Program-made: the position numbers and the translations under genes | Notes under the pieces: generated by a model | What the model was told of the DNA's origin: nothing | Database searches by the model: none | The model's input: only the letters and a program-made list of their open reading frames with translations | In this document: positions 1-506 of the stretch, in pieces | How positions within the stretch are numbered: the first letter of the stretch is position 1 | How the letters are laid out: each line of letters begins with the position of its first letter | Assembly (NCBI RefSeq): GCF_030817355.1 | Contig: NZ_JAUSZH010000001.1 | Span: 5,580,501 to 5,644,500 of the forward strand | Direction: 5' to 3' | DNA length: 64,000 nt | DNA from: Streptomyces sp. V1I1 | GTDB lineage: Bacteria > Actinomycetota > Actinomycetes > Streptomycetales > Streptomycetaceae

Positions 1-407
1 TCGATCCCCAGCTCCACCCCGTCCACCGAGGACTTGGCGACGGTGCGGTCCCTGAGACGGATGACGAAGGGGGCATGCCGGTGAACCGCTGCCCGGCCCT
101 GCTTCAGCAGCTTTCGTGCCCTGGAGGCGCTGGTGGGCTGCAGTGGTCGACCGTGTTTGTCGAGAACAAATACGACAGGGTGAGCCTCACGGCTCCGCTC
201 CCCACCCCGAGGGGTGGGGGTGACGCATCCGACGGCAGGTGAACCACCGGATGTCTCCCCTCGACGATGTCCGCTGCCGGGTGCCCTGCGGCGTCCGCGT
301 CCCGTTTCGTCCCTGCTCCCCGGGGTGTCTGCTGACGCGAATTCGAGAGCGAGCTGCTGAGGAAGCACAGCTCGGTCGGTCTGCTGTCCTACAGCGAACG
401 TAGCCAT
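1..407 (-). CDS. iscB: IscB-type RNA-guided nuclease, N-terminal part (runs off the left edge)
   Basis: Reading the minus strand from the ATG at 407 gives 135 residues with no stop before the window edge. From about 181 downwards the product matches the IscB N-terminus: a VFVLD strand, a GRPLQP (PLMP-type) motif, the SRARKLLKQGRA arginine-rich helix, then FVIRLRDRT and ELGID, where the RuvC-I strand begins. This is the RRXRR domain of IscB, the transposon-borne ancestor of Cas9, which uses an omega RNA encoded just upstream. The start is uncertain. The ATG at 407 has a strong GGAGGTGA five bases upstream, but the roughly 75 residues it would add lie inside the putative omega RNA and look like translated RNA rather than a domain. 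No in-frame ATG, GTG or TTG lies between 404 and the conserved domain. The HNH and later RuvC parts are outside the window, so activity cannot be judged. Confidence 0.78.
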   Translation of the reverse strand, partial: MATFAVGQQTDRAVLPQQLALEFASADTPGSRDETGRGRRRAPGSGHRRGETSGGSPAVGCVTPTPRGGERSREAHPVVFVLDKHGRPLQPTSASRARKLLKQGRAAVHRHAPFVIRLRDRTVAKSSVDGVELGI

Positions 408-495
408 CAAGGTCACCTCCCCCGTGCGTGATGGCTTGGTCTGGTCACACGTGGCTGATGAGCCCAGCTTGCGGCCGGGGAGCGTGTGACTACTG
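183..495 (-). ncRNA. Putative omega (HEARO) RNA of the IscB element
   Basis: The segment 5' of the IscB domain is packed with complementary arms, read on the minus strand. A GAGCC-GTGA-GGCTC hairpin with a GNRA loop lies at 182-195. A nine-base arm CCCCACCCC pairs with GGGGTGGGG at 200-219. CATCCG at 248-253 pairs with 226-231, while CTGCCG at 233-238 pairs with 274-279; these two stems cross, which predicts a pseudoknot. Eight-base stems join 402-409 with 429-436 and 444-451 with 483-490. Known HEARO/omega RNAs lie immediately upstream of iscB, contain a pseudoknot and carry the guide at their 5' end. The 3' boundary near 183 fits this; the 5' boundary is a guess and could be as near as about 405 if only a roughly 220-base scaffold is present. 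Confidence 0.62.
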
Positions 496-506
496 GGTTC
501 CCCTCT

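Follow-up and report, generated by a model that had tools for sequence, protein, structure and literature searches.

The DNA analysed here (the window) is a stretch of 64,000 nucleotides, G000:C1:5580501-5644500, in the 8.3-Mb genome of Streptomyces sp. V1I1. Reading the translations by eye, we recognized two clpP-like genes, a clpX-like gene, a lipoprotein-like gene, an IscB gene and an ATPase-domain regulator at the locus, with an HTH/TPR regulator, a valS-like gene and a folC-like gene as further neighbours. The IscB body begins on the minus strand at the edge of the window (1..176, PLMP/RRXRR domain, matched by PF14239 and NF040563), and the gene continues beyond the window to L002:8857; its 439 codons run without interruption across the edge. 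The NCBIfam IscB equivalog NF040563 matched residues 79-401 with 413.8 bits against a cut-off of 175 (E = 4e-124). Scores were 221.7 bits for RRXRR (cut-off 25), 47.4 bits for HNH PF01844 (cut-off 21.4) and 17.3 bits for RuvC PF02075, the last under its cut-off of 22.2; the protein was counted as carrying both RuvC and HNH domains, and its catalytic residues were assessed by eye only. The whole genome contained one HEARO match at the E-value threshold and one RRXRR gene over the cut-off, indicating a single copy. No Y1 transposase was found within the element, and the only over-cut-off match in the genome was located at C1:8163594, ~2.6 Mb away. The element is a stand-alone IscB without an IS200/IS605-type Y1 transposase of its own. 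Streptomyces sp. NBC_01481 carries an orthologous copy, 93% identical, at the same site. Between the element and valS, the minus strand carries a HATPase-domain regulator beside an HTH/TPR regulator (624-1265 and 1151-2395); the latter showed a weak, under-cut-off match to the NsdA family. Regulator pairs of this kind are common in Streptomyces.

A preliminary description had proposed that the DNA at 183-495, 5' of the IscB domain, encodes a HEARO/omega RNA with a pseudoknot. Rfam at the gathering threshold returned nothing across the 64-kb window. At an E-value threshold, the HEARO model (RF02033) matched the minus strand at 490-249 with 62.5 bits (E = 5.7e-12 in 1.2 kb); the alignment spanned the whole model, positions 1-211, and its stems covary. 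The score is under the Rfam gathering cut-off of 83 bits, and we therefore call the RNA HEARO-type and not a curated member; L070, a relative from the same lineage, scored 83.6 bits with the same model. HEARO matches at E <= 0.001 were found in 31 of 295 genomes at genus level, in 11 of 394 at class level and in 10 of 296 at phylum level, with the genome of the window included each time. The RNA adjoins IscB on its 5' side in the same orientation and also overlaps the coding frame. In kind, the proposal was borne out by the covariance-model match, the downstream IscB recognized by NF040563, the covarying stems and a guide backed by empty sites, and we regard the locus as a genuine IscB omega RNA, encoded on the minus strand and diverging from the Rfam model. 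Its limits needed adjustment: the scaffold (177..490) starts at 490, the guide occupies 491-506, and covarying hairpins reach down to 182. The putative 3' end of the scaffold was placed at 177, as the last covarying hairpin ends at 182 and the PLMP codon begins at 176.

The predicted guide (491..506, minus strand) immediately precedes the scaffold on its 5' side; its length of 16 nt is our assumption, taken from the usual length of IscB guides. It is identical to the native flank, and its sole exact match in the genome is its own site, with one further place at two mismatches. A match to the 5' flank was obtained in 27 of the 61 genomes searched and a match to the lipoprotein-like gene in 36 of 51, and 19 distinct empty sites in relatives were compared, the window's own site being excluded. 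In all 19, the native leader abuts ATGAG, for example ...AACGCATAAGCATCTGGAGGGGAACCCAGAA then ATGAGCTACAACCAG, and GGGGAACCCA is present in 11 of them. In the genome of the window, the element comes after the homologous ...AACGCATAAGCGTTCAGAGGGGAACCCAGTA, and ATGAGTTACAACCAG lies beyond it. In the last three registers, the 16-nt guide showed at most 2 mismatches to 7 of the 19 sites and 3 to 11 mismatches to the others. This flank identity with empty sites matches the 5' guide to the insertion site. Because the empty sites show the leader directly before ATGAG, the predicted guide once served as the ribosome-binding region of the following gene, which is the lipoprotein-like gene next to clpX, and the empty sites place the insertion exactly between this region and the ATGA start of that gene. 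HEARO elements are known to sit before ATGA or GTGA. Each of the 19 distinct empty sites, all representing one orthologous site, has ATGA directly after the target, on the 3' side, where a TAM would be expected. Of the seven copies aligned from Streptomyces sp. AP-93 and APSN-46.1, five terminate in (A/G)TCCG with ATGA next to it; L036 and L037 diverge at this point.

Several further features of the element ends and flanks were observed. The right end of the element, just left of the window (L002:8776-8857), brings a new Shine-Dalgarno, AAGGAGATCTTGA, before the ATG of the downstream gene, which apparently replaces the one that became the guide. In L040, L046, L047 and L052, coupled translation of IscB and the following gene is suggested: the stop TGA of the former seems to share bases with, or lie right against, the ATGA start of the latter. 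A GAAGGGAG-like ending is common to many Streptomyces guides in the 5' flanks of L015-L034, suggesting that one kind of ribosome-binding site was targeted repeatedly or that the copies share descent at it. Five HEARO matches were found in G257 and five IscB loci in AP-93 (L008, L036-L039, L042), probably one assembly, and the IscB family has multiplied in this strain.

For comparison, we collected 79 loci (L002, L006-L083), of which 71 were counted. The eight left out were L011 and L073 (without an IscB match), L007 (match beginning at residue 22), L061 (contig edge), L068 and L078 (partial matches), and L064 and L066 (not actinobacterial). The start motif described below was present in 66 of the 71 loci, or 62 unique relatives after four identical ones were dropped; L059 and L063 have an open frame with the motif absent, and L021, L023 and L028 have a broken frame. 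Alignment A1 contains 43 of the 62 unique relatives. The folding energy of the RNA was unremarkable (z = -1.5; 7 of 100 shuffles folded equally well), and since energy alone does not set the region apart, only comparison can exclude chance. Pairing in A1 was compared with shuffles, from which relatedness is not removed, and with slid controls, which retain relatedness and scored far lower for the supported helices.

RNAalifold predicted 70 pairs on A1, 47 of which had at least one pair-keeping change on both sides. The 5', nexus-type and central stems were paired in 96.9% of cells, with 130 cells changed on both sides and 0 of 500 shuffles as high. The 5' stem (444..490) pairs 483-490 with 444-451 around an enclosed hairpin, in agreement with the HEARO alignment, and its six outer pairs were 95.0% paired. 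The central stem (269..399) pairs 392-399 with 269-276 and encloses further hairpins; its six counted pairs were 98.1% paired, and all six had changed on both sides. Towards the 3' end, the hairpin at 200..219 (83.7% of cells paired, both-side changes in 5 of 6 pairs) and the GNRA-capped hairpin at 182..195, GAGCC-GTGA-GGCTC on the minus strand (95.8%, 3 of 5 pairs), jointly showed 89.2% pairing and 71 cells changed on both sides, again with 0 of 500 shuffles as high. The hairpin at 226..253 also covaries: the 226-231/248-253 pairing was present in 81.0% of cells, with both-side changes in 6 of 6 pairs, and forms the outer part of a single 10-bp hairpin, 226-235/244-253. Thus, most of the stems first proposed that were tested show compensatory changes, including this one and the GNRA hairpin. 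The exception was the proposed crossing pairing 233-238/274-279. Like 226-231/248-253, its strands are exact complements in the window, but it was paired in 64.0% of cells against 63.5% in shuffles, 193 of 500 shuffles were as high, and it competes with the central stem, whose core is supported. A version slid by three columns paired better (70.9% at +3), and the proposed pairing was dropped. The square-bracket stem in the Rfam structure line was also considered as a pseudoknot and rejected, being a nested, nexus-type stem. Another crossing interaction, between the Shine-Dalgarno at 413-418 and the loop 237-242, does receive support. An automatic hairpin search misplaced a few hairpins (e.g., in L048, L050, L053, L058, L062 and L077), and L030 is missing from it.

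That the window copy is an inactive remnant appears unlikely to us. It is a single copy with a HEARO score under the cut-off, the only over-cut-off Y1 transposase is remote, and the near-PLMP GTG of many relatives is absent here. Against this stand the uninterrupted 439-codon body, RRXRR and HNH matches over their cut-offs (with the RuvC match under its own), the 93% identical same-site ortholog in Streptomyces sp. NBC_01481 and the kept scaffold fold.

The preliminary description had placed the RNA wholly 5' of the coding region, a view that we revise, because the coding frame appears to begin within the RNA. A hairpin at 402..436 on the minus strand pairs 429-436 with 402-409, carries a Shine-Dalgarno, GGAGGTGA (413..420), in its loop, and holds an ATG in frame with IscB (405..407) in its 3' arm, which we propose as the IscB start. 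All 300 of 300 cells of the arms were paired in A1, with 28 cells changed on both sides and 0 of 500 shuffles as high. GAGG or GGGG was found within 16 nt before the start in 61 of the 62 unique relatives, the one without it being L025. The start codon was ATG in 39 of these relatives, TTG in 21 and GTG in 2. The pair between its first base and the hairpin partner (partner-start) was U-A in 22, A-U in 19, G-U in 1 and U-G in 1 of 43 sequences, and a tree built from the first 150 IscB codons required at least eight joint changes of start codon and partner. In the window copy, this ATG stands at codon -77 after GGGGGAGGTGACCTTG, and ATG, GTG or TTG occurs before PLMP only at codons -80, -78, -77 and -64, all within the HEARO match; no in-frame ATG, GTG, TTG, CTG, ATT, ATC or ATA was found from codon -63 to +4. 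In 11 of the 62 relatives, there is likewise no start codon between the scaffold core and PLMP. A further start codon was present within codons -12 to +1 of PLMP in 42 of the 62, so two starts are possible in many relatives. The IscB start appears to lie within the omega RNA both here and in most of the actinobacterial relatives examined.

The Shine-Dalgarno is also predicted to pair at a distance. AGGTGA (413-418) is complementary to TCACCT (237-242), the loop of hairpin 226-253. This pairing was present in 94.2% of cells of A1; shuffles gave 88.3%, none of 500 being as high, and slid controls gave 46.9% at most. The base after GGTG and its loop partner were A/T in 32 and C/G in 25 of the 62 loci, the exceptions being L009, L031, L048, L056 and L082. 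At least three switches between A/T and C/G were needed on the tree by joint-state counts, which we used in place of a branch-by-branch mapping of co-changes (0 coincident Shine-Dalgarno/loop changes there), in which the breaking of ties was arbitrary. L017 shows a double change, with an altered Shine-Dalgarno, GGCGC, meeting GCGCC. A second complement further 3', GTCACC, was unchanged where the Shine-Dalgarno varies. We regard the support for this predicted interaction as real and as coming mainly from one variable pair.

From the internal start, an open frame runs through the scaffold into IscB (177..407, minus strand), encoding a putative N-terminal extension of 77 codons. The frame was open from this start or its equivalent to IscB in 68 of the 71 countable loci. 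The four segments between landmarks from the start codon to PLMP were each a multiple of three in 61 of 61 relatives (L081 was short of one landmark in this count), and 18 different total lengths occurred; the open frame and the total length had in part been entry conditions for the 62, failed by 3 of the 71 loci, and the individual segments were not. From the RNA 5' end to the start codon, lengths were distributed 20/22/20 modulo three in 62 RNAs, with 5' ends taken from the covariance-model match or a 5'-stem search (that of L033 looks wrong). Pairwise-alignment gap lengths showed no excess of multiples of three (54/60/39 modulo three), which we read as small compensating gaps within segments. 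Stop codons in the IscB frame numbered 0 against an expected 11.3 in the scaffold and 0 against 10.1 in the linker, column independence being assumed. The other two frames were near expectation in the scaffold (60 vs 59.4 and 23 vs 24.6); in the linker, one was also short of stops (1 vs 5.8) and the other had 60 vs 64.4. In two Streptomyces loci, L021 and L023, the open frame is lost, and L021 also lacks the ATG; IscB may start there from an ATG 24 codons before PLMP.

The extension differs from the body in its pattern of change. Changes by codon position were 222/285/265 in the scaffold and 233/262/264 in the linker, compared with 711/528/1638 in the IscB body, and third-position GC was.643 and.735 in scaffold and linker, compared with.82 in the body. 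AlphaFold2 assigned the extension a pLDDT of 24-38 within a model of low confidence overall (mean 50.7, 28 sequences). With no third-position excess and no confident fold, the extension therefore looks unselected as a peptide. These comparisons indicate that the frame is kept while the predicted amino acids of the extension follow from the RNA.

The arrangement in the window was also found in two viral contigs (L162 and L163) and a Streptomyces canus plasmid (L166). The search of the phylum gave three loci with a Shine-Dalgarno and an ATG in the hairpin in frame with IscB (L088, L095 and L106), three with an in-frame ATG in the hairpin (L089, L090 and L105) and three with a hairpin ATG but a separate IscB start (L086, L087 and L103); several other loci had no IscB match within the locus. 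The last three are canonical HEARO RNAs from another class. Their nexus position holds AGGAGG or a comparable G-rich strand, and the hairpin ATG after it opens a short frame closed before the separate IscB start. As an outgroup, we used nine loci (L164, L167-L174) from Pseudomonadota, Thermodesulfobacteriota, Cyanobacteriota or an unassigned viral contig; L165, which matches only part of IscB, was left out. None of the nine had GGAGG, AGGAG or GAGGT in this hairpin (seven of nine checked by script, L168 and L174 by eye). In seven of the nine, a stop lay within 40 codons upstream of PLMP, and L168 and L172 were open for 71 and 73 codons.

These data bear on the possibility that the locus is an ordinary HEARO locus, with IscB starting at or near PLMP and the open frame being a by-product of RNA conservation in GC-rich DNA. 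Consistent with it are the PLMP-proximal start codons of 42 of 62 relatives, the lack of codon-level constraint on the extension and the outgroup loci, which begin there. The RefSeq annotation of the S. canus plasmid copy also begins near PLMP, despite the internal Shine-Dalgarno, start and open frame, and curators trim extensions, as described in PMC13180657. However, the window copy and 11 of 62 relatives have no such codon to start from, multiples of three hold exactly from the internal start onward and are absent before it, 61 of 62 relatives have the Shine-Dalgarno, and stops are avoided in the IscB frame. We consider a PLMP start quite improbable. The proposal that the extension works as a protein domain and overlaps the RNA by coincidence would fit the kept frame and several invariant residues, but we dropped it as highly improbable, since the codon-position changes give no sign of codon-level constraint, the extension has no confident fold, and the invariant residues coincide with conserved RNA.

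The explanation we favour is that a stand-alone IscB with its omega RNA inserted before ATGA, that the captured ribosome-binding region became the guide, and that IscB translation most likely starts inside the RNA. The element's identity, its guide and empty site, the covarying fold, the start-site motif and the preserved frame are documented by sequence comparison, and we infer initiation at 405-407 from them. Because 42 of 62 relatives have a possible downstream start, we hold to the internal start with good, not full, confidence. Ribosomes would start in the hairpin beside the nexus stem and then read the remaining scaffold into IscB. In a folded transcript, a stem would sequester the start codon and the distant loop 237-242 would pair with the Shine-Dalgarno, giving a guide with translation off; an unfolded transcript would serve as message, and translation would open the same scaffold. 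Once bound by IscB, the folded transcript would thus be a guide and silent as a message. We extend this guide-or-message switch tentatively, as a plausible model, to actinobacterial IscB RNAs in general: each would be either guide or message, the kissing loop and start-codon stem would hide the start, IscB binding would lock it (autoregulation), and the ribosome would unfold the guide and write the scaffold into a disordered N-terminal tail.

If this is true, a structured guide-RNA scaffold doubles as coding sequence under frame selection, and the arrangement offers a direct handle on the guide/protein balance in a one-gene RNA-guided nuclease. It also carries a warning that IscB starts and omega RNA ends may be lost to curation of the kind described in PMC13180657, and that annotation may trim IscB starts likewise, the RefSeq record of the S. 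canus plasmid being an example. Among the matches listed in our literature searches, with subscription papers mostly beyond reach, no paper placed an IscB start inside the omega RNA. As far as these searches reach, a start deep in the scaffold and a frame preserved through it are unreported.

Compared with HEARO RF02033, the window RNA shares the full-length minus-strand match directly before IscB, the covarying 5', nexus-type and central stems and the flank-derived 5' guide. However, it scores 62.5 bits against the cut-off of 83, has an extra insert with the Shine-Dalgarno and start codon in a hairpin after the nexus strand, and has covarying 3' hairpins past the model end. IscB structures have been solved for OgeuIscB and others. 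The window protein resembles this family in its over-cut-off NF040563 match, and solved IscB chains were among the 16 PDB sequences matched; it would differ in ~77 extra N-terminal residues encoded by the omega RNA, and most matches to solved chains start at or after PLMP. The same protein family was curated in PMC13180657, which reports N-terminal insertions, the removal of those of 10 or more residues via a downstream start where present, and an omega RNA end set ~2 bp before the protein start. Such curation would hide an internal-start arrangement. For the IsrB omega RNA, Hirano et al. 2022 (PMC9581776) places a Shine-Dalgarno in SL7, the terminal hairpin that directly precedes the coding region, and suggests that RNA binding could contribute to expression regulation. 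Regulation through the omega RNA is therefore no new idea. The two systems share a Shine-Dalgarno within the omega RNA, whereas that of the window sits, with its putative start, deep within the scaffold, ~230 nt before PLMP, and what remains of the scaffold would be read in frame. TnpB, according to PMC10278001, processes its own mRNA into omega RNA, so a single transcript likewise yields message and guide RNA. TnpB belongs to another nuclease family and obtains its guide by 5' processing of the mRNA, whereas in the window IscB the guide comes first and the start would lie inside the scaffold.
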